From: a virus
DNA: 64,000 bases
Direction: 5' to 3' (one strand)
IMG/VR virus record: IMGVR_UViG_3300033182_000922
Coordinates: 1-64,000 of that record
Within the stretch, counting starts at the first letter, position 1, and each line of letters begins with the position of its first letter. Under the pieces are notes generated by a model that ran no database searches, was not told where the DNA came from, and worked only from the letters and a program-made list of their open reading frames with translations. Position numbers and translations under genes: made by a program. Shown one piece after another: positions 7,559 to 49,321 of this stretch.

Positions 7559-7566
7559 TCCTTACA

Positions 7567-7574
7567 TATAAAAA
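7567..7574 (+). promoter_or_regulatory. Class B A/T box before polymerase N-terminal half
   Basis: TATAAAAA in CATATAAAAATAAAAT, only six bases before the ATG. That is too close for a normal -10 box with a leader, so a translation element is at least as likely. Confidence 0.3.
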
Positions 7575-7580
7575 TAAAAT

Positions 7581-8990
7581 ATGCTTTTAGACATTACACA
7601 AGAAGACCGTACTTTATGGGTCTCATATTACAATATGAACGGTAAGACCGATTTTATGACCTATGAATTACAGCCTCACGATATGTTTAATTGGCAAGTA
7701 TGTGATCCTAATGATGAAGGTGCTAGTAAGAAAATGAAAAACTGGGATGGCCGTTCTGTAAAGAAGGTTAAATCTAAGTTTCTTAATAAGTATCGTCTGA
7801 TTGAATATGTAGAGAACTTGCCTTTCACGGACAAGAATACAATCTTTGGTTATGACTTTCCTAAAACATTTTTTGTTGATATTGAAGTTGAGGTAACCGA
7901 TTCGTTTCCTGAACCAAGTAAAGCAGAAAACCCAGTAACAACAATATGTGTTGTAACCTCAGAGAGACAATGTATTGTTTTGGCAACAAAGGATTTAGAT
8001 AAACCAACACAATCAAAAATTCAAAAACAGATTGATGAACATTTTAAAGATATTGACGATGAGTTCTCGTTTATCTTTAAATGCTTTAAGTCTGAATATG
8101 ATATGATGTACACCTTTATGGATTCTTTCGTTAAGAAGTTTCCTATGATGACCGGTTGGAACTATGTAAAATTTGACTGGCAATACATTGTTAACCGCTG
8201 TAAAAAATTAGGCATTGATCCAGGTATTGCTTCTCCGCTAGGAAGGACATTCGGTCGTGATGAATTCCCATGCCATGTAGGAGTAATGGATTATTTAGAT
8301 ATTTATGCCAAGTGGGACAGGACCGTAGATATTAAAGAAGACTTTAAACTTGATACGGTAGGTGAAGCCGTAGTAGGCATTAAGAAGGTTAAGTATGAAG
8401 GTACTATTCAGGATATGTATGAAAAGGATTATCCTAAGTATGTTTTCTATAATGCAATTGATACTGCATTGGTCTATCTCATTCACCAAAAGATTAAGAC
8501 AATGGATATTGCATTAACCATTGCTCACATGAGTCAAATCAGTATCTTTAAAGCCGCATCACCGGTTGCAATTACTGAAGCTCTTTTATGTAGAGAATTC
8601 TTAGGTAAGAATCTTGTGATGGCATCAGATCCAAAATCACCGCCTTCTAAAAGAGAACAATTTGAAGGAGCCTTTGTAAAAGAACCAATCACAGGTATGC
8701 ATAATGCTGTTGCCGCATTTGACTTTGCTTCTCTATACCCATCAGTTATGAGGCAAATGAATATTTCTCCTGAAAGTTTTATTAAGAAGGTTGATCCTGA
8801 TAAACGTGAAAACGAAAAAGGCAATGATAAAATTGTATCTGTCACGGGTGCAATTTATTCAACTGAAAGATCAATTCTTAAAGATGTTCTTACTCGTCTT
8901 TATTCCCAACGACGAGAGTATAAGAAAAAATCTTTTGATCTTCAACAAAAGGCATATGAGATGGAAAAGGAGTTAAAAAATGAGAACTAA
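7581..8990 (+). CDS. DNA polymerase B, N-terminal half (gp43A-like: exonuclease and first part of palm/fingers)
   Basis: 469 residues. The 3'-5' exonuclease is complete: Exo I FVDIEVE (Asp100, Glu102), Exo II NYVKFDW (Asp199), Exo III YNAIDTALV (Asp294). Palm motif A is AFDFASLYPSVM (Asp381). It continues into the fingers and stops after a charged helix (KAYEMEKELKNEN). Motifs B and C are missing here and are found in the separate gene at 25678-26793. The break is at the tip of the fingers, as in the 43A/43B split known in some Aeromonas T4-like phages. No intein sequence is visible at the end. The two halves must assemble to polymerise DNA. Confidence 0.93.
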   Translation: MLLDITQEDRTLWVSYYNMNGKTDFMTYELQPHDMFNWQVCDPNDEGASKKMKNWDGRSVKKVKSKFLNKYRLIEYVENLPFTDKNTIFGYDFPKTFFVDIEVEVTDSFPEPSKAENPVTTICVVTSERQCIVLATKDLDKPTQSKIQKQIDEHFKDIDDEFSFIFKCFKSEYDMMYTFMDSFVKKFPMMTGWNYVKFDWQYIVNRCKKLGIDPGIASPLGRTFGRDEFPCHVGVMDYLDIYAKWDRTVDIKEDFKLDTVGEAVVGIKKVKYEGTIQDMYEKDYPKYVFYNAIDTALVYLIHQKIKTMDIALTIAHMSQISIFKAASPVAITEALLCREFLGKNLVMASDPKSPPSKREQFEGAFVKEPITGMHNAVAAFDFASLYPSVMRQMNISPESFIKKVDPDKRENEKGNDKIVSVTGAIYSTERSILKDVLTRLYSQRREYKKKSFDLQQKAYEMEKELKNEN

Positions 8991-13277: not shown

Positions 13278-13765
13278 AACAGAAACAATCTGCAGGTCTT
13301 GCTATAATCTATAATGGCATGGTTCTATTAGGACATACAACTGGTCGCGGTTGGTATGGTTCTTATGGAATACCTAAAGGTGGTATTGAAAAAGGTGAGT
13401 CCCGCCTGGATGCAGCTATAAGAGAAACTTATGAAGAAATTGGAATTAAGGTTCCTCGTTCTTTAATTGACCCAACTGAATATACATTTGCAGTAACCTC
13501 AAGAAAACAAGAATATAACAAAATTGTATATTACTACATTGTTAAAATTAACAGTTTATCTCAAATTGGACTTAAAGACTTAAAGGTTCCTAAATCACAA
13601 TTACAAGTTGAAGAAATTGATTGGGCTGGGTTTATATCTTATAAAGAAGCACAAAGAAGAATTATGAAATCTCAGCTTTCTTTAATTAATAACCTAGTAG
13701 GAAAGGGCCTTTTAGAAAACACTAATAACATTTTAAAGTTTAAAGACTTTGGAGCTAGACTATAA
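13274..13765 (+). CDS. Nudix hydrolase
   Basis: 163 residues with a complete Nudix box at ~35-57: GGIEKGESRLDAAIRETYEEIG (G-x5-E-x7-REx2EExG). Predicted to hydrolyse a nucleoside diphosphate linked to another group. Placement among sugar-nucleotide genes suggests an NDP-sugar or a housekeeping substrate such as an oxidised nucleotide; sequence alone does not decide. ATG overlaps the kdsA stop by 4 bases and its end overlaps the next gene by 17. Confidence 0.85.
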   Translation: MKQKQSAGLAIIYNGMVLLGHTTGRGWYGSYGIPKGGIEKGESRLDAAIRETYEEIGIKVPRSLIDPTEYTFAVTSRKQEYNKIVYYYIVKINSLSQIGLKDLKVPKSQLQVEEIDWAGFISYKEAQRRIMKSQLSLINNLVGKGLLENTNNILKFKDFGARL

Positions 13766-14804
13766 TATATTACTTGGTAGAAATCCTATTAAAACGGATC
13801 CTAATACAATCCAAGATTACATAAAGGGTAAAAGAATTATTGTTACTGGTGGGGCTGGTTCAATAGGGAGTGAAATAGTAAGACAGCTTTTAAATTTTGA
13901 AGCATCAAGCGTTGTTGTTTATGATAATGCAGAAGCATCAGTATTTCACCTGGAGCAGGAAATTTCTAGAACTTATCCAAAATCACACGTTAAATATGTA
14001 ATAGGTGACGTTAGGGATAAGTATAGACTTGAAGAAATTTTTGATTCATTTAAACCTAATGTAGTTTTTCATGCTGCTGCATATAAACACGTACCTATGA
14101 TGGAACTTAATCCTATAGAGGCAGTTAAAACTAATGTATTAGGAACCATGAATGTTGCTAATATATCAAGTATGAATGAGGTTGATAAATTTGTAATGGT
14201 ATCAACTGATAAGGCGGTGAATCCTACTAACATTATGGGTGCAACTAAAAGAATAGCAGAACTATATACCCAGTTCCTTGAAGAGAAATATCCTACGTCA
14301 TATGTAGTTACAAGGTTTGGAAATGTCTTAGGTTCTGAAGGTTCTGTAATACCAACATTTCTTTCCCAGATAAAAAGAGGAGGACCTATAAGTGTTACTC
14401 ATAAAGAAGTAATAAGATATTTTATGACTATTCCTGAGGCATGTCAATTGGTATTACAGGCCAGTTCATTAGGGAATGGTGGTGAGGTGTTTCTATTTGA
14501 CATGGGAGAACCTGTTAAGATTAACGATTTGGCAAAAAATCTCATTAAGTATTTTAAGAGTGATGCCAAGATTGAATATATTGGGCTAAGGCCTGGGGAA
14601 AAGCTTTATGAAGAATTGCTATGCGACGGTGAAAATGTTATTCCTACTGATGATCCTAATATAATGAAACTTAAACATATAGATTATGACTTTAATAATC
14701 TTATACCAAAAATTGAAAAGCTTTCCAAACTAAGATCAAATGACTTTTATAAAATTCTTTTATTAGTTAAGAGTATTGTACCAGAATTTAAAAGAGAGGA
14801 GTAA
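13749..14804 (+). CDS. UDP-GlcNAc 4,6-dehydratase-like (CapD/PglF C-terminal type)
   Basis: 351 residues of the extended short-chain dehydrogenase family. NAD-binding GGAGSIGSEIVRQL at ~34-47; active-site region VSTDKAVNPTNIMGATKR shows the Ser/Thr-Asp-Lys and Met-Gly-x-x-Lys arrangement of the CapD/FlaA1/WbpM group instead of YxxxK. It lacks the membrane domains of PglF or WbpM, so it is soluble like FlaA1/PseB. Likely product is UDP-4-keto-6-deoxy-GlcNAc. With the next two genes (acyltransferase, aminotransferase) it forms a bacillosamine-type trio. Confidence 0.88.
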   Translation: MELDYNILLGRNPIKTDPNTIQDYIKGKRIIVTGGAGSIGSEIVRQLLNFEASSVVVYDNAEASVFHLEQEISRTYPKSHVKYVIGDVRDKYRLEEIFDSFKPNVVFHAAAYKHVPMMELNPIEAVKTNVLGTMNVANISSMNEVDKFVMVSTDKAVNPTNIMGATKRIAELYTQFLEEKYPTSYVVTRFGNVLGSEGSVIPTFLSQIKRGGPISVTHKEVIRYFMTIPEACQLVLQASSLGNGGEVFLFDMGEPVKINDLAKNLIKYFKSDAKIEYIGLRPGEKLYEELLCDGENVIPTDDPNIMKLKHIDYDFNNLIPKIEKLSKLRSNDFYKILLLVKSIVPEFKREE

Positions 14805-15355
14805 TGATAAACATTTACGGTAAAGGTGGTCATGCAAATATGATTAAATCAAATCTAAAATCAGATCCAAAAAAGCATTGGGTAATAGGTGGTTTATATA
14901 ATGATGATGATTATAAATTAGCTGATGAATCGTTTTCTTGGATAATAGGAGTTGGAGATAATGACTCACGAAAATTAATTGCACAAAATAATTCATTTAA
15001 ATACAGTACATTTATATTTAGTACATATGAAAATGCAAAAAATATTGGGGAAGGTTGTTTTCTTGGTTACGGTAGTGTAGTACAAAATAATGTAATTATA
15101 GGAAATCATGTAATTATAAATACATCAGCTTCAATAGATCATGATTGTGTAATAGGAGATTTTGTACATATAGCACCAAACTCAACCTTATGTGGAAACG
15201 TAAAGATTGGTGAAGGTACTTTTATTGGGGCTGGTACAGTAATCATTCCTGGTATTACGATTGGAAAAAATTGTGTAATTGGAGCCGGTTCGGTTGTGGT
15301 TAGAGACATACCTGATAATTCAAAAGCATACGGAAATCCTGCTAAAATAAAATAA
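14804..15355 (+). CDS. Sugar O/N-acyltransferase, NeuD/PglD type
   Basis: 183 residues. N-terminal Rossmann-like sugar-nucleotide domain starting INIYGKGGHANMI, then a left-handed beta-helix from ~75 to 175 (IGNHVIINTSASIDHDCVIGDFVHIAPNSTLCGNVKIGEG) ending YGNPAKIK. The His of SIDHDCVIGD is the expected catalytic base. In the PglD family the enzyme N-acetylates UDP-4-amino-sugar to UDP-diacetylbacillosamine. Its start overlaps the dehydratase stop by one base and the aminotransferase follows after one base, supporting one pathway. Confidence 0.85.
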   Translation: MINIYGKGGHANMIKSNLKSDPKKHWVIGGLYNDDDYKLADESFSWIIGVGDNDSRKLIAQNNSFKYSTFIFSTYENAKNIGEGCFLGYGSVVQNNVIIGNHVIINTSASIDHDCVIGDFVHIAPNSTLCGNVKIGEGTFIGAGTVIIPGITIGKNCVIGAGSVVVRDIPDNSKAYGNPAKIK

Positions 15356-15356
15356 T

Positions 15357-16463
15357 ATGAAAAGAATTTACTTATCACCACCTCACATGACAGGTACTGA
15401 ACTTGAATATGTAAAAGAGGCATTTGATCAAAATTGGATTGCACCGGTAGGACCAGCCTTGAATAGGTTTGAAGAATATGTTGCAGAATATGTAGGATCA
15501 AAGTACGCGGTAGCAGTAACATCAGGTACGGCTGGAATACATTTAGCATTACGTGCATTAGGTATCAGTGAAGGGGATAATGTTATATGTTCTTCTCTTA
15601 CTTTTGCAGGTACGGTAAACCCAATTAAATATCTTGGTGCTAACCCGGTGTATGTTGACTCTGATCCAATATATTGGAACCTTAATCCACTCCTTTTAGA
15701 GGAGGCTATACTTAAACTATCTGAAAAACCAAAGGCTATTATACCTGTTCATATATTTGGGGTACCTTGTCAAATGGATGCAATAAAAAGAATTGCAGAT
15801 GCATATGAAATTCCTATCATTGAAGATGCAGCTGAAAGTTTAGGTTCTCAATTTAATGGTAAGCATACTGGTACATTTGGTAAGATTGGAGTATATTCAT
15901 TCAATGGTAATAAGTTACTAACAACATCAGGTGGTGGAATGATAGTAACTAATGATAAAGATTTGGCAGATCATATGAGATTTTTATCTACTCAAGCAAA
16001 AGATCCAATGCCTTACTATTGGCACACTCAGATAGGATATAATTATCGTATGAGTAATGTTCTTGCTGCGATTGGAATAGGTCAAATGGAATCAATAGAA
16101 GATAAGATAAAAAGGACTAGGGAAATTCGTCAAAGATATGAAGAAGAATTAGGAAGTTATTTTATGACATTTCAAAATGAGAGACCAACCGATAGATCCA
16201 ATATGTGGCTAAGCTGCGCCTTGTTAAAGGAAGAGTATAAACCAGAAGATCTTATTGAACATCTTAATAAAGCTAATATAGAAGCCAGAAGAATCTGGTG
16301 TCCTATGCATATGCAACCTATATACGCAGAGGATTCTAAATATATAAATGGAACGGCTGATGCTCTATTTGATCGTGGTATATGTTTACCTTCAGGCTCA
16401 AGTATGAATGATGAAGATCTAAATAGAGTAATAGGTGAAGTAAAAAAATTCTTTAACGAATGA
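15357..16463 (+). CDS. DegT/DnrJ/EryC1/StrS-type sugar aminotransferase (PglE-like)
   Basis: 368 residues, PLP-dependent fold type I. The PLP Lys is in YSFNGNKLLTTSGGGMIVT (~residue 183); other signatures are TSGTAGIHLALRALG and IPVHIFGVPCQMDAI with EDAAESLG. It should aminate the C4 keto group made by the dehydratase, using glutamate. With the adjacent dehydratase and NeuD/PglD-type acyltransferase the three steps to UDP-N,N'-diacetylbacillosamine or a close relative are all present. Overlaps the next glycosyltransferase by 4 bases. Confidence 0.9.
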   Translation: MKRIYLSPPHMTGTELEYVKEAFDQNWIAPVGPALNRFEEYVAEYVGSKYAVAVTSGTAGIHLALRALGISEGDNVICSSLTFAGTVNPIKYLGANPVYVDSDPIYWNLNPLLLEEAILKLSEKPKAIIPVHIFGVPCQMDAIKRIADAYEIPIIEDAAESLGSQFNGKHTGTFGKIGVYSFNGNKLLTTSGGGMIVTNDKDLADHMRFLSTQAKDPMPYYWHTQIGYNYRMSNVLAAIGIGQMESIEDKIKRTREIRQRYEEELGSYFMTFQNERPTDRSNMWLSCALLKEEYKPEDLIEHLNKANIEARRIWCPMHMQPIYAEDSKYINGTADALFDRGICLPSGSSMNDEDLNRVIGEVKKFFNE

Positions 16464-17694: not shown

Positions 17695-18249
17695 ATGGAA
17701 AGGTGCTTAATACTAGATTTTGATGATACTTTAGTTGATACTATTGATACTCACGCAGATTCCTGGAAACAGGCATTGGAGAGAGTACTTAATACAGATA
17801 TCCCTATTGAGACGGTTATGGCCGATATTAATTATGGGATGGATGTTTTATTAAAAAAGTACCAACTAACCAGAGAAGAATCTATTTTAGCTCAAAGATA
17901 TAAAAAGGAAATTTTTGAAAAGAATATACATAAGACAAAGGTAAATAAATTACTTTTGTATATTATTGAAAATAATCTTTTTGAAAATTGTATCATTGCA
18001 TCAAATTCATCCAGAGAAAATGTTGATAAAATCATGGCATATCATGGAATTAATCAAGATCTGTTTTGGGGTATTTTTACCAGAGATGATGTAAAGAAAA
18101 AGAAACCTCATCCTGAAATGGGTGAAACTATATTTAGTTTGCTAAGAGCTTCATACCAAAAAGAAGACTATCTTATGGTTGGGGATTCTGAGGTAGATAA
18201 AATGTTTGCACGTAAACTTGGAATTAAATGCATACTAGTAAAATTTTAG
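17695..18249 (+). CDS. HAD-superfamily phosphatase (beta-phosphoglucomutase-like)
   Basis: 184 residues with HAD motifs: I DFDDTLVDT (residues 8-16), II ASNSS (~102-106), III Lys in KKKKPHPE, IV GDSEVD. A helical cap between motifs I and II places it in subfamily I, unlike KdsC, which lacks such a cap. Probably dephosphorylates a sugar phosphate or small metabolite. The first gene of a coupled trio with a kinase-like and a nucleotidyltransferase gene, with overlaps of 22 and 4 bases. Confidence 0.85.
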   Translation: MERCLILDFDDTLVDTIDTHADSWKQALERVLNTDIPIETVMADINYGMDVLLKKYQLTREESILAQRYKKEIFEKNIHKTKVNKLLLYIIENNLFENCIIASNSSRENVDKIMAYHGINQDLFWGIFTRDDVKKKKPHPEMGETIFSLLRASYQKEDYLMVGDSEVDKMFARKLGIKCILVKF

Positions 18250-18974
18250 TAGGGAACAGTGGAGATAAGGTTTATCTCCATGAAGATAAGGTTATTAAGG
18301 AAGCGGGGGTGTATCCTGAAAAGTTTAAACAACAAATGGATTGGTTAGTAAATTGCCACCATCCTAATTTTATTGATGTTAAACCTATTTCAGATACATC
18401 TTTTGAAATGAAAAGATACCCAACATGGTATGACCAAATATGTAATCAGCCTCTGGTAAAATCTCTATCACAATTAGATGATCTTATTCACATCGTTAAT
18501 TCATTTGAAGGGTATGGTAAAGATATAGATACCAGAGCATATCTTGATAAGTTGGAAGGTCGTACTGGTTATAAGTATGAAGGAAATCTTGATGGTGCAT
18601 CCAAGTGGGGTTTTGTTCATGGTGATCTAACCGTAAGTAATATTCTATATGATAAAGATTTTATCTTTATTGATCCAAGAGGAACCGAAGAACAAGATTA
18701 CTATGACTTTGGTAAACTAATGCAATCCTTTACTATGGAATATGAGGCCCATATATACAATAACAACAATCCAAAATACAGTAAGTTTTGTAAAGAAGCA
18801 GAAAAAATAATGTATGAATGGTATGATGAATATCTTCTGAAGTTTTACTTAGCAGTCCACCTTTTAGGGGCAGTACCGTTTTTTGAATTAAATGAAAGAT
18901 ATGAATTGGCTGGTATGTTCCTTAAGAAAGGGCATGAATTATTCAATGAATTAGAAATTAAGTATACAAAATGA
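18228..18974 (+). CDS. APH/choline-kinase-like phosphotransferase
   Basis: 248 residues of the protein-kinase-like small-molecule kinase fold. Catalytic loop FVHGDLTVSNILYDKDFIFIDPRG (~residues 126-149) gives the HGD-x4-N base/metal site and the IDPRG metal site. N-terminal lobe is short, with Lys in KVIKEA. Likely phosphorylates a sugar or an amino-alcohol such as choline. With the nucleotidyltransferase just downstream it resembles a LicA/LicC-like pair that activates a phosphorylated group for glycan decoration; this is inference. Confidence 0.7.
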   Translation: MHTSKILVGNSGDKVYLHEDKVIKEAGVYPEKFKQQMDWLVNCHHPNFIDVKPISDTSFEMKRYPTWYDQICNQPLVKSLSQLDDLIHIVNSFEGYGKDIDTRAYLDKLEGRTGYKYEGNLDGASKWGFVHGDLTVSNILYDKDFIFIDPRGTEEQDYYDFGKLMQSFTMEYEAHIYNNNNPKYSKFCKEAEKIMYEWYDEYLLKFYLAVHLLGAVPFFELNERYELAGMFLKKGHELFNELEIKYTK

Positions 18975-19678
18975 GTAGAGTAAGAAAGGCAATTATTTTA
19001 GCCGCAGGTAAATCCACCAGGTATGGATCTAATAAATTAGTAGATCCAATTTTAGGAAAGTCAACAGTTCAATACTGTATTGAATTTTGTATTGAAAATG
19101 GAATTGAGGATGCATATGTTACAATTAGTAAATCTGACTTCTTCTTTAAGAACAGAAATACAAAACTGTCTCATCCTATTATTGAAAGTTTATCTAAGTA
19201 TAAGGAAAAGATAAACATTTATTATGAATTCCAAAAGGATGATGAATACGGACCAGGTGCTGCCATTAAAGCATGGGAAGGCAAATTTTATGAGCCTTTC
19301 TTATGTCTCTTTGGTGATAATTATTACCAAGGAAATATTGGTTTAGAATATCATGATCCTAATACCTCTGTTGTTACATATAAAGATTATCAAACTCGTG
19401 CAAGGAACCTTCAACTTGCAACTATCTTAGAGGATGTGGTTATTGAAAAACCGCATGGTGTTGTAAACGGAAGATACTTTTGTGGTTATATGATATTTGC
19501 AAAAGAGGCATTTGATAATTTGAGTAGTATTAAATTATCAAATAGAAATGAATATGAAATTACTCATTTGATCAATTCCATGAGTAATCTTAAATTTGAA
19601 GAATTAGACATATGTTGGTATGACTTAACATATGAACAAGATAAACAAGTAATAGAAGATATCATTCAAAGTTGTTAA
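18971..19678 (+). CDS. Nucleotidyltransferase of NDP-sugar pyrophosphorylase type
   Basis: 235 residues. The N-terminus KAIILAAGKSTRYGSNKLVDPILGKS is the nucleotide-binding signature (LAAG-x-S-T-R) of RmlA/LicC-like enzymes. A metal-binding Asp is seen in LCLFGDNYY. It should join an NTP with a phosphorylated sugar or choline to make an activated donor. Not KdsB-like at the N-terminus. Overlaps the kinase by 4 bases and is followed after one base by a glycosyltransferase-like gene. Confidence 0.8.
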   Translation: MSRVRKAIILAAGKSTRYGSNKLVDPILGKSTVQYCIEFCIENGIEDAYVTISKSDFFFKNRNTKLSHPIIESLSKYKEKINIYYEFQKDDEYGPGAAIKAWEGKFYEPFLCLFGDNYYQGNIGLEYHDPNTSVVTYKDYQTRARNLQLATILEDVVIEKPHGVVNGRYFCGYMIFAKEAFDNLSSIKLSNRNEYEITHLINSMSNLKFEELDICWYDLTYEQDKQVIEDIIQSC

Positions 19679-19679
19679 T

Positions 19680-20942
19680 ATGAAAGAAAACGTAAAAAAG
19701 ATTGGCTTTTTTAAATTAGGTAAAGCCATTAAGTTTAATGAAAACAGTTGGAATGCTATTGGTGGAGACTGTGAACCTAAGCAGTTGATCAGTGCAATTG
19801 CCAACAGAAACCCTAATGTTGAATATTGGCTTCTTAGCCCAAATGACTTAGGAAAGGTTAGGGCTAAACAAAAGCCTAAAGTTAATTCTCTATTTGGTCC
19901 ACCTCCAACTAAAGAAAATGAAATTCCTACAAACATTAAGGAATTCCATTCAACTATGAATGATCGTAAATCAACCGATGAAGCAGTTGAAACGATTAAA
20001 GGTTTAGGATTAGATTTTGTATTCTTTTACACAGGTCCAACAAGTACTGTTAATATTGAAAACTTTATCAATAAGGTTGATGGTTCAGGTACAGTTAAAA
20101 CATTGGACTTTTTTAAGTATTATGCGGCTCCTATCATTAAGGCAATGAATGAAATGCCTAAGACTCCTATTGTAGGATTATTGGTAGACAACCGTTATGT
20201 ACTTTCATGTAAGGATTACACTGCCCATAACAGACCTACATATTACTTGGCCCAGAATAATTTTGAATTGGATGAAGAGTATTTCTGCAATCCTCCTACT
20301 AGAGAGACTGCAAAAATTCACTCTACTTTTGAATATTCCGGAATTGAAACGGTGTTCCTTTTAGATAAAAAGCGTTATGATATTGATGAGCTCTTTGCTA
20401 TGAAGAAGACTAATTCATTTATGATGCTTCAGAACCAAGGGAAGGGTTCAGGTGGAATGGACCGTTGGGATCCTGTTCGTGATTACATTGTAGAGAATGG
20501 AATCCAAACAGACATTTATGGTAAATGGGATGATGAACTTAAGGAAAAATATCCTGATTGGTTTAAAGGAGAACGCCGTATTGAAACCATGACCGAAGAA
20601 TTACTTGCAACCAAGTATACTTTCTGTGTTCCTATTAAAGAAGGAATGGTCACTTCTAAGTATGCCGAAATGTTGCACTATGGTATTATACCTTTCTTGC
20701 ATCCATCCTATGATACTGAATTTAATGTATTCCCTGAAGGGCATTTCATCAGATGTAAATCACCAGAGGATCTGAAAAAGAAAATTGAATTCTTAAATGC
20801 CAACCCAGAGCATTATAAGAAGCTATTCTACAATCTCCAAGAAAAGTATTTAAAGGATTCTTATTATACCGGAGAACATGTAGATAATAAAATCTGGGAA
20901 GCCTATAATCGTGTAAATCAAATAGAAACTGCAAATGTATAA
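19680..20942 (+). CDS. Probable GT-B glycosyltransferase
   Basis: 420 residues. The C-terminal third carries the pattern expected of a GT-B donor domain (DIYGKWDD..., TKYTFCVPIKEGMVTSKYAEMLHYGIIPFLHPSYD), comparable to other phage and exostosin-like glycosyltransferases. The N-terminal half starts KKIGFFKLGKAIKF and is less diagnostic. Donor and acceptor unknown. Overlaps the epimerase gene by 8 bases. Confidence 0.6.
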   Translation: MKENVKKIGFFKLGKAIKFNENSWNAIGGDCEPKQLISAIANRNPNVEYWLLSPNDLGKVRAKQKPKVNSLFGPPPTKENEIPTNIKEFHSTMNDRKSTDEAVETIKGLGLDFVFFYTGPTSTVNIENFINKVDGSGTVKTLDFFKYYAAPIIKAMNEMPKTPIVGLLVDNRYVLSCKDYTAHNRPTYYLAQNNFELDEEYFCNPPTRETAKIHSTFEYSGIETVFLLDKKRYDIDELFAMKKTNSFMMLQNQGKGSGGMDRWDPVRDYIVENGIQTDIYGKWDDELKEKYPDWFKGERRIETMTEELLATKYTFCVPIKEGMVTSKYAEMLHYGIIPFLHPSYDTEFNVFPEGHFIRCKSPEDLKKKIEFLNANPEHYKKLFYNLQEKYLKDSYYTGEHVDNKIWEAYNRVNQIETANV

Positions 20943-21957
20943 TTCAGAAACTAAAATCCTAATCACCGGCGGTGCTGGTTTTGTAGGAACTAATTTTATT
21001 AATGATCTCCTTAACCGAGGTCATAATCCAAAATGTATAGCCGTGATTGATAATCTTTCGCACGGTACTTATTTACCTCAGGTACATGACCAAATTGAAA
21101 ACTTTCATAAGGTAGATATTCGCAATCAGTATGTAGAAAATATTATCGAGGAATTTAAACCTGATTATGTTTATCATTTTGCTGGTCTTGTTTCAATTTA
21201 TGACTGTAACGAAGACCCTTATGAAGCAGTTGACAACAATATCTTAGGAAGTATTAATGTAATGAATGGCTGTGTTAAGGCTGGGGTTAAGAGAATCATC
21301 TTCAGTGAAACTTCTGCTGTTTATGAAAATTGTGAAATGCCTGAAGCTGGGTTTAATGAAACACAGTCCGATCCTACTACTGTTTATTCAACAACTAAAG
21401 CATGTCTTGCACTGTTGGCAGAATCTTACCAAAGAACAAAAGGCCTTAATTATACGGCATTAAGATACTTTAATGTTGCTGGCCCTCTTCAAGATTACAA
21501 TAGAACGATCCCTCCTGTATTTGCCGGATTTATCCTAAGAATTAAAGGGGGTCATAATCCTATCGTGTTCGGTGATTATATGAAAGCTCGTGATTACATT
21601 GATGTATCCGATGTTAATGCATTCCATATTCTCTGTATGGAAAATGAGAATACCGCAAACCAAACATTTAACTTAGGTACGGGTAAAATGACTAACCTAA
21701 TGGAACTTAAAAATATGATTGGTGATATTATGGGAGTTGGTGAAGTGCCTTTTGACCATTATGATCCTATTGCAGGTGAAGCATTAAATATTCGTGGAGA
21801 TATCTCTAAAGCTAAATCTATGGGATGGGAACCTAAAAAGGATATTAGAGATACAATTAAAGAAACTATTGTATATCTTGAAAATGAAATTGCCGAAGGT
21901 ACAATTGATCCTTTAACATTCATGGAGGATCTTGAAATAGAAAAAGTTAAAATATAA
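20935..21957 (+). CDS. NAD-dependent sugar epimerase/dehydratase (GalE-like)
   Basis: 340 residues, extended SDR. NAD-binding TGGAGFVGTNF at ~11-21; catalytic Ser/Thr in SETSAVYE and YxxxK in VYSTTKACL (~residue 150). Conserved RYFNVAGP and DYIDVSDV follow the UDP-glucose 4-epimerase pattern. It probably epimerises or dehydrates an NDP-hexose for the glycan made by neighbouring enzymes. Exact substrate not decided. Confidence 0.85.
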   Translation: MYNSETKILITGGAGFVGTNFINDLLNRGHNPKCIAVIDNLSHGTYLPQVHDQIENFHKVDIRNQYVENIIEEFKPDYVYHFAGLVSIYDCNEDPYEAVDNNILGSINVMNGCVKAGVKRIIFSETSAVYENCEMPEAGFNETQSDPTTVYSTTKACLALLAESYQRTKGLNYTALRYFNVAGPLQDYNRTIPPVFAGFILRIKGGHNPIVFGDYMKARDYIDVSDVNAFHILCMENENTANQTFNLGTGKMTNLMELKNMIGDIMGVGEVPFDHYDPIAGEALNIRGDISKAKSMGWEPKKDIRDTIKETIVYLENEIAEGTIDPLTFMEDLEIEKVKI

Positions 21958-22590: not shown

Positions 22591-23853
22591 ATGAGTAAAG
22601 AAATAAAATGGGGAACAATCATACCGCTTATCGGTGGTAGTGCTATAGGCTGTAGCAAATCCACAGGAAATCAGCCATCATTTCATTTAAGTTACGATGC
22701 CTTTGCTGCAAACGAAAGCCATATTGAAAAATATTGGCCAGATGTTCCAATGTATAGATTGGACCATGAAGATTTAGAAATTCCTGGGGAAACTTTTGAA
22801 GGTGTAGATTATGTTAATAGTGTTTGCCCTTGCGCAGGATTATCTCTTTTAAATTCTGCAAGTGGATCTGCCGCCTCTAGGGGATCTGATGCAGTTCAAA
22901 ATAAATGGATGTATGATTCATCCGAATACATCTTGGAACACGTAAAGCCTAAAGTTCTCTGGGGCGAAAATGCACCTGGTCTTTTTACTAAGATGGGAGA
23001 GGGTGTAGTACAGAGACTTAGGGAAATTGCAGAAAAGCATGGATATAGTTTTTCTCTAATTAAAACCAATACTGAATTACATGGTATTCCACAGAGAAGA
23101 ATGCGTACTTTCTATTTCTTCTGGAACACACCAACAGTTCCAATGTTGGAATGGAAGTTTAGAGAAAAGAAAAAACTTATTGATTATCTTAACGAAATTC
23201 CAGAGGATGCTACTCAACAGGACATGTTTATGGTTCCTGGTAAAGTGTCCGAACATTTTAGACCTTATGAGTTTGTTTTAGAAAGGGAAGGCTTGACACA
23301 TGCTGAATTTTCTGCTAAATTTAAGAAAGGTACTATTGCACAATACCTTGATAAACATGAATTACTTGATGAGTGTATTGAATGGCTAAGAGAGAAATAT
23401 CCAAAAGAAGGTTTTTCAAATAAGAAGTCAACCAAAACATTTATTGATATGTTAGAGCATCAAAAGAATAAGGTAAGCCAAGGTCTTGGTTATTGGGATG
23501 CTTCTCCTCACTTCTTCCATGATTCGTTCTCTGCCTTAATTGGTCGTAACATGTTTAATGGTGTCCACCCTGTAGAAAATCGTTATCTTAATGTTAGAGA
23601 AATGTTACATCTGATGGGATTACCTTTAGACTTTGAAATTGAATCTTCTCGCCAAGTTAATCATATTGCACAAAATGTACCGGTTACAACTGCAATGGAT
23701 ATGGCCAATGAAGTTAAGAAGTTCTGTGAAGGTAATGCTAAAATGACAAATTATACCTTCTTAAAACAGGATAACACAAATCATAAAATCATAGCAGCTG
23801 AGGAAATTGGCTCAACTCCTAAAAAGAAGTATAAAGTAAAAAGTGTAATATGA
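22591..23853 (+). CDS. C5-cytosine DNA methyltransferase-like protein
   Basis: 420 residues with the ordered motifs of C5-cytosine methyltransferases: I-like IPLIGGSAIGCSKSTG near the N-terminus, IV with catalytic Cys (SVCPCAGLS, ~residue 90), VI GENAPGLF, VIII LHGIPQRRMRTFYFFW, and IX/X-like LNVREMLHLMGLPLDF ... NVPVTTAMDMA. The spacing between VIII and IX is long, typical of a target-recognition region. It should modify position 5 of cytosine in DNA. It overlaps by 4 bases the next glycosyltransferase, which is followed by the clamp gene, so a role in a multistep DNA modification is worth testing. No restriction endonuclease partner is seen. Confidence 0.82.
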   Translation: MSKEIKWGTIIPLIGGSAIGCSKSTGNQPSFHLSYDAFAANESHIEKYWPDVPMYRLDHEDLEIPGETFEGVDYVNSVCPCAGLSLLNSASGSAASRGSDAVQNKWMYDSSEYILEHVKPKVLWGENAPGLFTKMGEGVVQRLREIAEKHGYSFSLIKTNTELHGIPQRRMRTFYFFWNTPTVPMLEWKFREKKKLIDYLNEIPEDATQQDMFMVPGKVSEHFRPYEFVLEREGLTHAEFSAKFKKGTIAQYLDKHELLDECIEWLREKYPKEGFSNKKSTKTFIDMLEHQKNKVSQGLGYWDASPHFFHDSFSALIGRNMFNGVHPVENRYLNVREMLHLMGLPLDFEIESSRQVNHIAQNVPVTTAMDMANEVKKFCEGNAKMTNYTFLKQDNTNHKIIAAEEIGSTPKKKYKVKSVI

Positions 23854-24860
23854 AAAAGAACGCAGTAGCTATCGGGGTATCAAGCCTCGAGTTTATGAAC
23901 ATTCTTTTAACCTATTATCCTAAAGGAATTAAGGAAACCTTTGACTTTTACCTTTTTATTGATGATACTAAGGTAACATCAGATCAAGTAAATGAGGTTA
24001 TAGGTAAACATGATATACCTTCATTTAAATCTGCTAAGCATATTATCATTAGAGATTTATATGATTACTACGCAGAAAAACATGAGTATGAAGGTAAGGC
24101 TAAAGAATTCTTATACAATCACGGATGCTTATTTAAGGTTCTTATGCCAATGTATCTTAAAGAAAAATTTAATGTCAACCGGACTTATGTTTCTGATGAT
24201 GATGTTTTTATCTTTAATGATCTAAGCTATATGTTTACTAAATATAAGGAATTTGGTTATAAGAAAGAAAACCTATTTAACCTTAGAAATAAAGATAAGT
24301 ATGAAGTCTTAGGTGCATTTAATGAAATCTTTGAAGTTGATTTTACCTTAGAACAAATGAATGCATTATCTATTAATGCAGGTAATATCATTTATGGAGA
24401 TGATCCTAAAATGGAGTATTACTTCAAGAGGTATATGAATCACCCAATGGTTCATCACTTATTCTTTGACTTTGAAGGGTACACCAGTTGGACGGTTGAA
24501 CAGAGATTCCATCATTGGAACTTTCATAGGCTAATGGCTGAAGGTAGAACCGTTGATATATTAGGTCCTAAAGATTTAAGACTAATGCAAAATGTAAATA
24601 AGAAAGCTTTGGCAAATAATGAACAACCTCTCTATTTAAGACAAGTTACACCTTCTCTTATGCATTATGCTATAGGTGTTAAGAAGCCAATTTTCTTAAG
24701 GCAGTTTTTAAGAGGGATTGAATGGAAGTTTGGTTTTGAATATCAACCTCAATATGAGCTAAAGGATATCTTATATGATGAAACTTGGCAACCCCCTGCA
24801 TTCAAACAAGTTCAAGCAGAAATGAAAGGCGCAAAAAGTAAAGTAACCTCTCTGTTCTAA
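23850..24860 (+). CDS. GT-A (family 8-like) glycosyltransferase with clamp-binding-like C-terminus
   Basis: 336 residues. TYVSDDDVFIFNDLSYM (~residues 113-129) supplies a DxD metal/nucleotide-sugar motif and SINAGNIIYG (~172-181) the downstream GT8-like element. The last residues, KVTSLF, match the last four (TSLF) of the DNA polymerase C-terminal half at 25678 and resemble the SLF clamp-binding tail of T4 gp43. The gene lies between the C5-methyltransferase-like gene (4-base overlap) and the clamp gene. A clamp-tethered DNA glycosyltransferase is therefore possible; T4 alpha-glucosyltransferase is reported to contact gp45. A role in surface glycans is the simpler alternative. Confidence 0.65.
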   Translation: MKKNAVAIGVSSLEFMNILLTYYPKGIKETFDFYLFIDDTKVTSDQVNEVIGKHDIPSFKSAKHIIIRDLYDYYAEKHEYEGKAKEFLYNHGCLFKVLMPMYLKEKFNVNRTYVSDDDVFIFNDLSYMFTKYKEFGYKKENLFNLRNKDKYEVLGAFNEIFEVDFTLEQMNALSINAGNIIYGDDPKMEYYFKRYMNHPMVHHLFFDFEGYTSWTVEQRFHHWNFHRLMAEGRTVDILGPKDLRLMQNVNKKALANNEQPLYLRQVTPSLMHYAIGVKKPIFLRQFLRGIEWKFGFEYQPQYELKDILYDETWQPPAFKQVQAEMKGAKSKVTSLF

Positions 24861-24885
24861 CTTAAACTAAGTAATCATTAATCAA

Positions 24886-24893
24886 TATAAAAA
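24886..24893 (+). promoter_or_regulatory. Class B A/T box before clamp gene
   Basis: TATAAAAA in AATATAAAAATAAAC, 17 bases before the clamp ATG. Confidence 0.4.
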
Positions 24894-24910
24894 TAAACAA
24901 ATTCAAAACA

Positions 24911-25660
24911 ATGGAAGCAACAATTGAAAAAATCGATGGATACGAATTAAGTTCGTTCGTCAAAAAACTTCTTCCTATTGACAAATTCATCTTTATGAAA
25001 ATTGGTCAAGAAGGAACTGTCTCGTCTGTGTATTTTCCAGAGAGGGATGCGGTTAAGTTGGTAAACACTCCAACTAAAGATATCTTTGAAACTGATATCA
25101 CACAACCAGTTAAGGTAAGCTTTTACAATGGTACTAAAGTGATTGATGCATTGTCCCATTTTAATGGTGATGTAAAAGGTCGTATTAAGTATTCAGAATA
25201 TGATGGCGAACTTATGGCAAGTGATTTTATTTTAGAGAATGAAGATCTACAAATTAATCTTGCATGTAGTGATCCTTCGCTATCTTTCATGGAGATGAGT
25301 AAAGAAGAAACAGATCGTGCGTTTGGAACAGATTCTAAAATGTTCGAATTTGATCTTTTAACTACCCACGTTGATCGCATGAAGTCTCTCTTTAACTTAG
25401 ATAAAGACGAGGATATCTTTACTATCTACACTAGTGATAAAGGTATTGGAATCAAAGGAAGTTCATATGACGCTACGCTCTGCCACACATATGATTCAAA
25501 TGTTGATACAGGTGCAAGGGTGGTTATTTATAAAAAGTATCTTAATCTTTTAGATAAGGAAAACTATAAAGTTGTGGTTTGTGAAAATAAAGTAGTATTC
25601 CGCTCTCTTGATACTAACACCCATTTAACCGTCGCAGTTGCAATTACTGACGAGGATTAA
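24911..25660 (+). CDS. DNA polymerase sliding clamp, gp45-like
   Basis: 249 residues, close to T4 gp45 (228). Assigned on overall pattern: N-terminal helix (YELSSFVKKLLPIDKFIFMKI), alternating beta/short-helix repeats, and an acidic N-terminal half (FETDITQPVKVSFYNGTKVIDALSHF); and on context, immediately upstream of the polymerase C-terminal half. gp45 trimers encircle DNA, raise polymerase processivity and in T4 activate late transcription through gp55. Loader genes are at 46949 and probably 49365. Confidence 0.85.
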   Translation: MEATIEKIDGYELSSFVKKLLPIDKFIFMKIGQEGTVSSVYFPERDAVKLVNTPTKDIFETDITQPVKVSFYNGTKVIDALSHFNGDVKGRIKYSEYDGELMASDFILENEDLQINLACSDPSLSFMEMSKEETDRAFGTDSKMFEFDLLTTHVDRMKSLFNLDKDEDIFTIYTSDKGIGIKGSSYDATLCHTYDSNVDTGARVVIYKKYLNLLDKENYKVVVCENKVVFRSLDTNTHLTVAVAITDED

Positions 25661-25677
25661 TCACCTAATCAATAAGA

Positions 25678-26793
25678 ATGACAGAGGAACTTAAAAAGAC
25701 TAAAGAAGAAGCGAGTAAGTATTACAACTATGAACAGGCCGTTAAGCTTATGCTTAACTCTATCTACGGTGCATTTGGTAATCCTTACTTCTACTTCTTT
25801 AATGTTGATATTGCTGAAACTATTACTCTACAAGGTAAGGATGCAATTCTTTATACTGAAAAGCTAATCAATAAGTATTTTAAGGAATTCTGGCATAAAG
25901 ATATAGATGCCCACAATCAATTAGGTATTAAAGTTACCGGTAAAATTGAAAAACCCGTGGGCATCTATATTGATACAGATTCAATATATGTTAAGTTTGA
26001 TGAGATCATTAAAAAGTCTGATTGGGAAGGCTCGGAAAAGGATTTTATACTTAAGATATATAAAGTAAGATTAGCAGATTATATTGAAAAAATCTTACAA
26101 AAATATGCAGATGATAATAATGCAGAAAACTTTTTAAGCTTTGAATTGGAGAGCATCGCAAAGAATGCGATATGGCTTGCAAAGAAAAAGTATATGCAGA
26201 ATATTGTTTGGAAGGATCCTGATATCCACTATGATGAATTAACTAAAATTAGTGCCAAAGGATTTGAAATTATTCAATCATCAACGCCTGTTTTTGCTAG
26301 GGAAAAACTAAAAGACCTATTGACATATATCTTTTCTGTTGATCAATTGGATATGAAAGAATTTGCAAATTTACTTAAGGATGTAAAACGACAATTTAGA
26401 TTGGCTAACACTGATCAAATTAGTTTTTCAAAGAAAGTTAATAATTACCAAAAGTATATTGTTAATGATTATGATTCATTTGAAATTGCATCTAAATGCC
26501 CAATCGGTGTAAGGTCGGCCGGGTATCATAACTATCTTTTAAATAACTCAGGTCTTAAAGGAAAATATCAACCATTAGGAAATGGAGAAAAACTAAAAAT
26601 GTATTTTTCTGTTGATAAATCATGTGATGTATTTGCATATGCCCCTGGTGACTATCCTTATGAATTTGCACCAGAAGTAGATTATGATCGTCAATTTGAA
26701 AAAACAATATTGGATCCTATCAACAGGGTTGTAACTGCAATGGGATTTAAGGCATTTAATCGTAACCTTATTTATACTACGAGCCTATTCTAA
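25678..26793 (+). CDS. DNA polymerase B, C-terminal half (gp43B-like: fingers, palm, thumb)
   Basis: 371 residues. A short charged helix (MTEELKKTKEEASKYYNYEQ) leads into motif B KLMLNSIYGAFGN (~23-35); motif C is IYIDTDSIYVKF (Asp99, Asp101). KKKYMQNIVW and the C-terminal thumb follow. It completes the exonuclease/motif A half at 7581-8990, 16.7 kb upstream. The final residues TTSLF fit the clamp-binding tail of T4-type gp43. The helical ends at the break in both proteins may pair when the halves assemble. The gene begins 17 bases after the clamp stop. Confidence 0.93.
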   Translation: MTEELKKTKEEASKYYNYEQAVKLMLNSIYGAFGNPYFYFFNVDIAETITLQGKDAILYTEKLINKYFKEFWHKDIDAHNQLGIKVTGKIEKPVGIYIDTDSIYVKFDEIIKKSDWEGSEKDFILKIYKVRLADYIEKILQKYADDNNAENFLSFELESIAKNAIWLAKKKYMQNIVWKDPDIHYDELTKISAKGFEIIQSSTPVFAREKLKDLLTYIFSVDQLDMKEFANLLKDVKRQFRLANTDQISFSKKVNNYQKYIVNDYDSFEIASKCPIGVRSAGYHNYLLNNSGLKGKYQPLGNGEKLKMYFSVDKSCDVFAYAPGDYPYEFAPEVDYDRQFEKTILDPINRVVTAMGFKAFNRNLIYTTSLF

Positions 26794-31726: not shown

Positions 31727-32161
31727 ATGCAAGACGATAAAATATTCAATAATTCGTATGGTGATTATGATCCATCCGAAAGTAAAATATCATTTAACGT
31801 ATCTCCAACATACGGTGATGATATGGATCCAGATGATAAGATGCACTATGAATTACTATTTAAGAAAATTGATAACTTAATTAAAGGGAGTGAATTTGAA
31901 CATTTAAATGAAGTAACAACAGATGGTGTTATTAAGAAACTAAATAAAGTACAAATCAATAAGGTTTATTTTTACATTATTGAAAACTTAGGAACTTCTT
32001 ATACTAGGATTGATTTATTTGCTGTAATTTCAGATTACTTTGATGTATTTCCTAACAAGTTTTACAATTCGTTATCAAATAAATTTAAGGATGAACTTAT
32101 CAAAGAATTGGATGATAAGTACAACATCTTAGAAAAGAGAAAAATCCGCAAACTTTTTTAA
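31727..32161 (+). CDS. Hypothetical protein between helicase and gp47
   Basis: 144 residues. The first ~50 are acidic and probably disordered; the rest is helical (LLFKKIDNLIKGSEF ... VYFYIIENLGTSYTRIDLFAVISDYFD) with a basic C-terminus (EKRKIRKLF). Starts one base after the helicase stop and ends one base before gp47, so it is in the recombination operon. A helicase or recombination accessory role is suggested by position only. Confidence 0.55.
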   Translation: MQDDKIFNNSYGDYDPSESKISFNVSPTYGDDMDPDDKMHYELLFKKIDNLIKGSEFEHLNEVTTDGVIKKLNKVQINKVYFYIIENLGTSYTRIDLFAVISDYFDVFPNKFYNSLSNKFKDELIKELDDKYNILEKRKIRKLF

Positions 32162-37830: not shown

Positions 37831-38196
37831 ATGCCAAGGAAAAGAAATTATCTTAACAATAGAGACCTTTTAGAAGAAATCATTAAGTCTCAAGAACAAG
37901 ACGAGTTAACACCAAAAGCTTTAGAATTTTTAATGTTATTAGCAGATAAATGTTCCCTAAAACTAACTTACCGTGATCCTAAAGATAGAGAAGACTGTAT
38001 AGCATATGCCTATATGGATCTTTATAGATATTGGAGAAACTTTAATCCTGAAAAGAGTACGAATGCATTTGCATATTTTACTGAAATTGCAAAAAGAGGT
38101 TTTGCAAAAGGATGGAATAAACTTCACCCTAAGAAATATGCAGGAACAGTATCAATTGATGGCAGCGCTGATAGCGAAGGAATCTACACAATTTAA
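37831..38196 (+). CDS. Late transcription sigma factor, gp55-like
   Basis: 121 residues. The N-terminus NYLNNRDLLEEI matches the start of T4 gp55 (NYVNNKELL), and DLYRYWRNFNPEKSTNAFAYFTEIAKRGFAKGWNKL follows the gp55/sigma region 2 pattern that recognises TATAAATA. It is clearly shorter than T4 gp55 (185 residues): the tail after ~105 is only SIDGSADSEGIYTI, so the T4-type C-terminal clamp-binding epitope is not obvious. It should drive late transcription with host polymerase, and possibly the clamp. It sits at the start of the head operon and overlaps gp4 by one base. Confidence 0.8.
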   Translation: MPRKRNYLNNRDLLEEIIKSQEQDELTPKALEFLMLLADKCSLKLTYRDPKDREDCIAYAYMDLYRYWRNFNPEKSTNAFAYFTEIAKRGFAKGWNKLHPKKYAGTVSIDGSADSEGIYTI

Positions 38197-38672
38197 TGAG
38201 CATAAAGAAAGTTAAACCAACCGCGAAATCAGGTTACAAACAAGGTTATTATAAACCTAAATATCCTGAAAAGTATATGGGGCCTGGTCCTATTATATAC
38301 CGTAGTAGTTGGGAACGAAAATTCTGTCATTGGTGTGATCATAATGAACAGGTTATCAAATGGATATCAGAACCATTTGCAATTAAGTATTTTAATATCC
38401 TAGATAAAAAATTTCATAACTACTATCCAGACTTTTATGTAAAGATGGAAAAGGAAGGTGTAATACAAGAATATGTAGTTGAAATAAAACCTAAGGCACA
38501 ATTACAAAAACCTAAACCGCCTAAGAGAAAGACTGCAAAAGCAATGGCTAATTTTAAATATGGTTATGAAACTTATGTTAGAAATCTTTGTAAAACTGAA
38601 GCTCTTAATAAAGCAGCAGAACAAAGAAACTTTAAGGTTATGCTAATAACTGAAGATTCAAATTTATTTTAA
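38196..38672 (+). CDS. Head completion protein gp4-like (nuclease-like fold)
   Basis: 158 residues. YRSSWERKFCHWCDHNEQVIKW (~residues 30-51) and HNYYPDFYVK ... YVVEIKPKAQ fit T4 gp4 and the TnsA/PD-(D/E)xK-like fold (Asp of PDF, Glu-x-Lys of EIKPK). In T4 gp4 acts late in head completion before tail joining. N-terminus basic. One-base overlap with gp55 gene. Whether it is catalytic is not known. Confidence 0.8.
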   Translation: MSIKKVKPTAKSGYKQGYYKPKYPEKYMGPGPIIYRSSWERKFCHWCDHNEQVIKWISEPFAIKYFNILDKKFHNYYPDFYVKMEKEGVIQEYVVEIKPKAQLQKPKPPKRKTAKAMANFKYGYETYVRNLCKTEALNKAAEQRNFKVMLITEDSNLF

Positions 38673-48100: not shown

Positions 48101-49321
48101 ATGAAGAAAACCGGCAGACATACATTTGTCATAGATGGTAATTACTTTTTGTTTAGAACGCTGTATGTATTACCTAGACATGGCAAATCAAAAGAAATGC
48201 TTGGTACACAGGAAGACACTAATGCCTTTATGAAAAAATTGGCAACTGATTTTGCTTACCAAGTTCGGTTATTTGAAGGTCTTATTGATAAAATTGTTTG
48301 GACTCAAGATTCAAGATCTTGGCGTAAGGATTTTTATCCAGAAGCAGACTATAAAGGTAATCGTAAACAAGATAGTTCTATTAACTGGGAAAACTTTTCA
48401 AAAGTAACGGAGGATTTTATTTCTCTTATATCTAAAAGCGGTGTAATTATATCTAAGGTAGATGGCGCTGAAGGCGATGACCTTATGTATGCATGGAATA
48501 CGGAATCATTGGCTAACGATAAATCCGTTATTATGTTTACTGGTGACCGTGACCTTGTCCAATTAGTTAACAAGAGTGTAAATAACAATACTCATACCAT
48601 TTTGTTTTCACCGGCGCATAAAAAGCTGTATACATATCAAGGATTTACTGAATGGATGGATTCTCAAGAAGACCAGGAAACTACTGATATCTTTGATTTA
48701 ATGAAAGTTTCTATTTCACCAGAAAACCAAGCCAAGAAGTTATTACAGACTCTTATTAAAAAGAAAAAGGTAAACGTTGTAGAAGTTGACCCAGAAGAAT
48801 TCCGTTTTCGTAAAGTTCTTACTGGTGATGCAGGAGATAATGTACCACCTGCATATTGGTATGTATCTAAAAATCGTAGATATGGTATTAGTGAGAAAAA
48901 AGCAATAGAAATCATTTCTGAATTTAAAGAAAAACATGGAGTCCTTTCTCACATGTATCTTTATAATGATGAGTATATTACCGACCTTGCAAATATCCTT
49001 ATTAGAGTAATGAAGGCAAAACATATGAGCCGAGAACAGATCATTACTAATCTAAAGTCTAATGTTAACCTTATGGTTCTTGCTGCTGAGTCTATCCCTG
49101 AAGGTATCCTAGATGAGATGTTCCGCTCTGTTGAATCTAAAATGAATCATAATGCTTTGGAACTTAAAAGAGTTTCAACAATGAAATCGTTATTGGAAAA
49201 TACTTCTTATGGCGGAAACGATAGTATTGCTGTATCGTCAAAGATATTTAAAGATGACGATGACGATGGCGATGACTTCTCATTCATTAAGGATAAAAAA
49301 TCCCAAAAGAAAATTTTCTAA
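48101..49321 (+). CDS. RNase H / 5'-3' exonuclease of FEN family (T4 Rnh-like)
   Basis: 406 residues. Acidic active-site motifs of T4 RNase H/FEN: VIDGNYFLFR (Asp13), DSRSWRKDFYPEADYKGNRK, VDGAEGDDLMYAW, TGDRDLVQLV, and LTGDAGDNVPP. It removes RNA primers from lagging-strand fragments. Longer than T4 Rnh (305); the C-terminal ~90 residues end in an acidic stretch (DDDDDGDDFSF) and KKSQKKIF, a tail that could contact the clamp. Confidence 0.88.
   Translation: MKKTGRHTFVIDGNYFLFRTLYVLPRHGKSKEMLGTQEDTNAFMKKLATDFAYQVRLFEGLIDKIVWTQDSRSWRKDFYPEADYKGNRKQDSSINWENFSKVTEDFISLISKSGVIISKVDGAEGDDLMYAWNTESLANDKSVIMFTGDRDLVQLVNKSVNNNTHTILFSPAHKKLYTYQGFTEWMDSQEDQETTDIFDLMKVSISPENQAKKLLQTLIKKKKVNVVEVDPEEFRFRKVLTGDAGDNVPPAYWYVSKNRRYGISEKKAIEIISEFKEKHGVLSHMYLYNDEYITDLANILIRVMKAKHMSREQIITNLKSNVNLMVLAAESIPEGILDEMFRSVESKMNHNALELKRVSTMKSLLENTSYGGNDSIAVSSKIFKDDDDDGDDFSFIKDKKSQKKIF

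Follow-up and report, generated by a model that had tools for sequence, protein, structure and literature searches.

A putative clamp-tethered cassette for cytosine glycosylation, with an atypical C5-methyltransferase-like enzyme, in T4-like phages

C5-cytosine methyltransferases occur with glycosyltransferases (GTs) in phages that hypermodify 5-methylcytosine (5mC) by TET/JBP and TAGT enzymes, and in DNMT1-PCNA maintenance methylation a clamp brings an enzyme of the C5-methyltransferase (MTase) fold to replicating DNA. Phage T4 makes glucosylated hydroxymethylcytosine (hmC) with the dCMP-hydroxymethylase gp42 and alpha- and beta-glucosyltransferases, and its alpha-glucosyltransferase (alpha-GT) binds the sliding clamp gp45 (PMC13216743, citing Sommer 2004). 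In T4, a linker connects each clamp-binding motif to the protein body, and the motif docks on a hydrophobic patch of gp45; the clients include gp43, gp33, gp55 and ligase (PMC7892883). The RB69 ORF53_52c/Thanatos TH1_060 family is implicated in NDP-pentose synthesis and annotated for UDP-arabinose biosynthesis (PMC6024577, PMC12838424). The subject of this study is a locus in a 64.5-kb fragment from IMG/VR (record IMGVR_UViG_3300033182_000922; positions 1 to 64,000 are the window, the whole stretch analysed), where genes for a C5-MTase-like protein and a glycosyltransferase adjoin those for a clamp and half of a DNA polymerase. We assign a probability of about 0.72 to the reading, drawn from sequence comparison, that the locus belongs to a cassette which glycosylates cytosine by way of hmC, is tethered to the clamp and includes an atypical C5-MTase-like enzyme.

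The window comes from a T4-like phage whose family-B polymerase is split, and its source appears to be a giant-phage relative of T4. All genes given below with window coordinates in the form start..end are on the forward strand. Four genes form the block of interest: the C5-MTase-like gene (22591..23853, 420 amino acids (aa), tail KYKVKSVI), a GT-A (GT8-like) glycosyltransferase (23850..24860, 336 aa, tail KVTSLF), a sliding clamp of the PCNA/gp45 fold (24911..25660, 249 aa), and the C-terminal half of the polymerase (25678..26793, tail TTSLF), which matches PF00136 and a split-polymerase PHROG. A sequence-only reading of the window had proposed these four genes, the overlap of the first two and the two SLF tails, and all of this was confirmed to the letter; the MTase stop and the GT start share 4 bases. 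The N-terminal polymerase half (7581..8990), assigned by order and synteny, is ∼17 kb from the C-terminal half. In megaphage LR756500 the C-terminal half is further broken by an intein or homing-endonuclease-like insertion.

GT-A had no Pfam or PHROG match, and annotated phage relatives were looked for and not found. It has a DDD metal motif of the DxD type at residues 116–118, and its AlphaFold2 model, low-confidence in the C-terminal third, matches GT8-type GT-A enzymes, namely xyloside xylosyltransferase, LgtC and glycogenin (Foldseek, E ∼4e-6, TM ∼0.4). A PDB sequence search gave no match for either GT-A or the clamp. The clamp also lacked a family match, and because profile comparison with T4/cyanophage gp45 was not significant, a fold search was used. 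All 50 Foldseek matches listed for the predicted model, itself of low confidence, were sliding clamps (PCNA, beta clamp, 9-1-1; E 1e-7).

The tail shared by GT-A and polymerase is kept in orthologues, and its position and type match T4-family clamp-binding motifs. Across 14 GT-A sequences (the others 44–89% identical to that of the window), S334 and F336 never change, although the linker before them varies in both length and sequence. Polymerases of the lineage all end in TTSLF or TTNLF, and that of LR756500 ends in SSSLF. Ends of the form [LIVM]F or FFx are found on about 2–6% of genes, mostly replication or DNA-modification proteins; the carriers are mainly clamp clients (polymerase, gp33-like protein, flap endonuclease (FEN), topoisomerase, sigma factor) together with modification enzymes. 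In the 139.8-kb collinear relative G003, 7/186 genes end in [LIVM]F: the GT, the polymerase, a gp33-like 144-aa protein, FEN/RNase H, the topoisomerase large subunit, a head-closure nuclease and one membrane-like protein. T4 polymerase (SLDFLF), gp33 (TLDFLL) and gp55 (SLDFLY), which are known clamp clients, carry such tails, so this list of clients is what a clamp-binding motif predicts. Three of these genes in the window are a 144-aa gp33-like candidate late-transcription coactivator (31727..32161), named from its position, size and tail KRKIRKLF with no family match, a FEN/RNase H-like 5' nuclease (48101..49321, tail KKIF) and a gp4-like head-closure nuclease (38196..38672, tail EDSNLF).

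The tail is found on further modification enzymes elsewhere. A family search for the MTase found 484 loci, of which 80 were kept. Among these, distant jumbo-phage MTases end in SLF, NLF, KLF, CLF, TLF, ALF, VLF or PLF, and the GT-B-like glycosyltransferase GT19 ends in KSLF, TSLF, KLF or ALF. In the divergent phage G018, [DE]FF[AS] ends occur on only 4/193 genes, which encode the polymerase (SLEDFFS), a FEN-like nuclease (NLEDFFS), the MTase (SSDFFA) and GT19 (LSDFFS); there the modification enzymes carry tails of the same form as the one on the polymerase of that phage. GT19, MTase, LicD and GT25 proteins are tailed in G031 alongside the polymerase and a gp33-like protein. Among the other tailed neighbours are an AGT-like GT (PF11440, E 4e-5, slightly below the PF11440 cut-off), GT25, LicD, a sigma factor and weak TAGT and GT47 matches. 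For each of four genomes, the odds of MTase and GT19 both being tailed by chance lie between 3e-4 and 2e-3, and combined they come to 5e-9; these figures are indicative, as tail patterns and genomes were picked after looking and lineages were taken as independent. By these comparisons the tail is not a product of chance, and its predicted role in tethering modification enzymes to the clamp is well supported by sequence.

Several observations on the tails stand beside these results. GT19 of the window has an internal KPKVNSLFG loop (residues ∼66–72) resembling the C-terminal motif, with KVASLFG, KAAPLFG and VKSPLFG in orthologues. Loci L131, L134 and L135 each have two tandem MTase-like genes, both LF-tailed, adjoining an AGT-like (PF11440) GT with a TKLF or TALF end. 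A LicD-family protein (PF04991, E 1e-16; tail GKTLF) adjoins the tailed MTase, GT19 and GT25 in L140 (12626-13273; G031:41751-42398), where phospho groups might be added to DNA sugars at the clamp. The MTase tail is ...TF instead of ...S[VI]I in L027, L102, L104–L109, L111, L114 and L116, fetched loci that yielded no GT-A gene; L110 and L112 depart from this pairing. A tie between the tail change and loss of the neighbouring GT-A is possible.

The sequence-only reading had seen no dCMP-hydroxymethylase and proposed clamp-directed cytosine modification that bypassed it. The absence is true of the 64.5-kb fragment only. G003 is collinear with the window up to the window's end and, ∼12 kb further on, encodes a thymidylate synthase (TS)-family protein whose best PDB matches are CMP/dCMP hydroxymethylases (E ∼1e-24, versus 4e-11 for ThyA). 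This hydroxymethylase-type protein has Asp at the dCMP-specifying position, and it was found in 25/27 MTase-bearing records of at least 70 kb, a count in which G002 and G004 are inferred from the near-identical G003 and several of the records are close relatives of one another. In L036 the genes for MTase, a DXD glycosyltransferase, a nucleotide kinase and the hydroxymethylase are consecutive. For this lineage the missing hydroxymethylase is most likely a truncation artefact. Of the earlier proposal, clamp direction is supported by sequence, with the tail on several unrelated modification enzymes; the hydroxymethylase-free route is not supported, and methylation at C5 followed by glycosylation is a doubtful order, given that the search for a TET/JBP able to oxidise 5mC found none and that S-adenosylmethionine (SAM) motifs I and II of the MTase are altered. 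The TET/JBP route was set aside: no homologue scored above cut-off in any record searched, although records may be incomplete. The phage loci resemble TET/JBP and TAGT systems in pairing a C5-MTase-like gene with glycosyltransferases and differ from them on this point.

The MTase-like protein matches PF00145 (E 1e-18) and has the fold and the PC (catalytic Cys81), ENV-type (E126-N127) and RxR (R170/R172) motifs of C5-cytosine DNA methyltransferases. Cys81, Glu126-Asn127, Arg170, Arg172, Gln361, Val363 and Pro364 are invariant in 41/41 dereplicated sequences. The SAM-binding motifs depart from the family: FxGxG of motif I has become [IV]PL[IV]G in 40/41, and the acidic residue of motif II is lost, with Ser/Tyr in its place. 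Since the catalytic residues are kept while FxGxG has changed, the chemistry is ambiguous. Cytosine flipping and covalent attack are probably retained and use of SAM is doubtful. An unlikely but specific possibility is that the enzyme has given up SAM-dependent methylation and that its conserved Cys/Glu/Arg form a covalent C6 adduct on 5-hydroxymethylcytosine (5hmC) at the clamp, so that the 5-hydroxymethyl group is activated for attachment of another group. If true, thymidine hypermodification would have a counterpart on cytosine, and the C5-MTase fold would have gained a new role. MTase-bearing phages also hold cysteine synthase-like genes (L032:2801-3697, near the cassette; G022:45583-46443), which would be of interest if a thiol were coupled to hmC.

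The MTase recurs together with sugar-activation and GT genes as a cassette. The window has a HAD phosphatase adjoining the sugar-activation genes (17695..18249), an APH-like kinase (18228..18974), a sugar-1-phosphate nucleotidyltransferase (18971..19678), GT19 (19680..20942; internal KVNSLFG), which accompanies the MTase more constantly than any other partner, and an NAD-dependent nucleotide-sugar epimerase/dehydratase (20935..21957). The kinase is the split counterpart of a nucleotidyltransferase-kinase, often fused in relatives, of the RB69 ORF53_52c/Thanatos TH1_060 family; this protein and GT19 are the recurrent partners. As in the arabinosyl-hmC pathway of RB69 and the pentosyl-cytosine pathway of Thanatos, the homologous nucleotidyltransferase-kinase occurs in genomes with a dCMP-hydroxymethylase-type gene; unlike there, GT19 has no RB69 match and an MTase-like protein and clamp tails are added. 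Enterococcus phage 9183 holds a kinase, hydroxymethylase-type protein, dUTPase, HAD protein, nucleotidyltransferase-kinase and GT19 with no MTase nearby, which argues that the MTase is an add-on. Pseudoalteromonas phage XG4, like phage 9183 a cultured relative, also has hydroxymethylase, sugar-activation and GT19 genes. In a family-A polymerase phage (L037:12425-14019), inspection placed a KdsC/KdsD-like fusion and a ribulose-phosphate epimerase-like open reading frame (ORF) inside the cassette, both compatible with arabinose. Window positions 12537-16463 hold genes resembling those for 3-deoxy-D-manno-octulosonic acid (KDO)-8-phosphate synthase, a UDP-sugar dehydratase, PglD and DegT, a second sugar pathway that probably serves surface glycans.

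A number of observations weigh against the clamp-tethered, hmC-based cassette. The window MTase ends in KSVI, not SLF. XG4 and G034 have family-B polymerases, and their MTase and GT19 are without a tail; in L032/G019 the MTase is tailed (QTSLF/QTQLF) and the polymerase is not. NrdB also ends in DDLF/NELF, presumably for other reasons, so that the LF pattern by itself is not specific. The T4 alpha-GT, weighed as a possible direct precedent, ends in FKEQFDIITK without such a motif, and clamp contact is not the chief cause of the dominance of alpha-glucosylation in T4 (PMC13216743). The MTase tail occurs in 0/5 of the family-A polymerase phages tested, and the contrast between family-A and family-B phages amounts to only 2–3 independent comparisons on the tree; on account of these few contrasts, no significance is claimed for the association of polymerase class with the tail (Fisher p 5e-4). 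G036 has ThyA only and no hydroxymethylase. G018 has the cassette in 155 kb with no detectable dCMP-hydroxymethylase and no match to a ThyA-type TS. A hydroxymethylase-free version of the cassette may therefore exist. G018 has ThyX-like (2001-2687) and radical-SAM-like (7393-8295) ORFs near the cassette.

G018, with MTase, GT19, sugar activation and the ThyX-like ORF and neither a hydroxymethylase-type nor a ThyA-type match, speaks, together with the hydroxymethylase-free 64.5-kb fragment, for the scheme of the sequence-only reading, in which a C5-MTase makes 5mC in situ and a GT then acts with no dCMP-hydroxymethylase. We consider this highly improbable: 5mC has no hydroxyl to glycosylate, the TET/JBP search was negative, and the hydroxymethylase-type protein lies just past the window's end in collinear relatives as well as in the long MTase-bearing records. 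It is possible though doubtful that the tails bind the clamp but only the GTs take part in hypermodification, the MTase being a conventional 5mC methylase that uses SAM and guards residual cytosines. The PF00145 match and the invariant Cys, ENA, RxR and Q-x-V-P residues fit such an enzyme, and jumbo phages commonly carry MTases (PMC7824862). The changed motif I and lost motif-II acidic residue fit it poorly, as does the near-obligate association with the hydroxymethylase and GT19, where unmodified cytosine should be scarce.

The remaining two alternatives concern the tails and the sugars. If the LF tails served another hub or were lineage noise, the genes would adjoin only as co-transcribed early genes; NrdB and membrane proteins are indeed unlikely clamp clients, but conservation of Ser and Phe beside a free linker, the tails on unrelated modification enzymes and the DFF[AS] set of G018 make this quite unlikely. 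Slightly less probable still is that the glycosyltransferases make surface or virion glycans and not DNA sugars. The KDO/amino-sugar genes and untailed GTs (26807, 28012) are also in the window, and such genes resemble cyanophage polysaccharide clusters (PMC7824862). However, it is GT-A, GT19 and the AGT-like GTs that share tails with replication proteins, the untailed GTs having no motif, and the tailed GTs sit with the MTase and, in distant relatives, with the hydroxymethylase. A RecA/UvsX-like gene with an intein-like insert was also noted (L028:11233-13848).

From the computed gene content, tails, conservation, likeness to each phage's own polymerase tail and hydroxymethylase co-occurrence, we infer clamp binding, sugar, step order and MTase chemistry for the hmC-based cassette as follows. 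Overall, the cassette would make sugar-modified cytosines in phage DNA. A dCMP-hydroxymethylase-type enzyme, its gene outside the fragment, probably supplies 5-hydroxymethyl-dCMP at the nucleotide level in the wider lineage. Kinase, nucleotidyltransferase and epimerase would produce an NDP-sugar; as in RB69 and Thanatos, the sugar is probably a pentose or something similar. GT19 and GT-A may move sugars onto the base or onto a first sugar. The C5-MTase-like enzyme would act on the same cytosines in a further step. The GT-A tail, and in many relatives those of the MTase, GT19 and further transferases, is predicted to dock on the clamp as the polymerase tail does. Newly made DNA would then be modified, and could be disguised, during copying.

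Like T4, such phages would combine a dCMP-hydroxymethylase-type enzyme (here in relatives) with GTs and clamp contact (here predicted from tails). Unlike T4, they use a GT8-like GT-A and GT19, a polymerase-shared tail absent from T4 alpha-GT, an added C5-MTase-like enzyme and an NDP-sugar route. The tails resemble the motifs of gp43, gp33, gp55 and ligase in being short, hydrophobic, linker-borne, placed at the C-terminus or close to it, and common to one clamp's clients, including the phage's own polymerase; they differ in consensus ([ST][SN]LF or DFF[AS] versus SLDFLF) and in being placed on DNA-modification enzymes. The likeness to DNMT1-PCNA is convergent at most, the phage enzyme having altered SAM motifs and an hmC/glycosylation context.

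The T4 alpha-GT contact with gp45 (PMC13216743), hmC glycosylation and clamp-binding motifs are known in principle. T4 alpha-GT was the only clamp-tailed or clamp-bound MTase or DNA glycosyltransferase found in the open literature searched. In that literature, including the DNA-modification section of the jumbo-phage survey PMC7824862, a polymerase-type clamp tail on a C5-MTase-like enzyme and multiple transferase families is apparently undescribed, as is the association of this enzyme with a hydroxymethylase. If the clamp-tethered reading is right, one portable tail secures a whole line of base-modifying enzymes to the replication clamp. The LF tail would then be a signature by which transferases that act on DNA, such as LicD or GT25 proteins so tailed, could be picked out in uncultured phages, and there would be a testable reason why an enzyme of the C5-MTase fold persists in phages that apparently make hydroxymethylcytosine.

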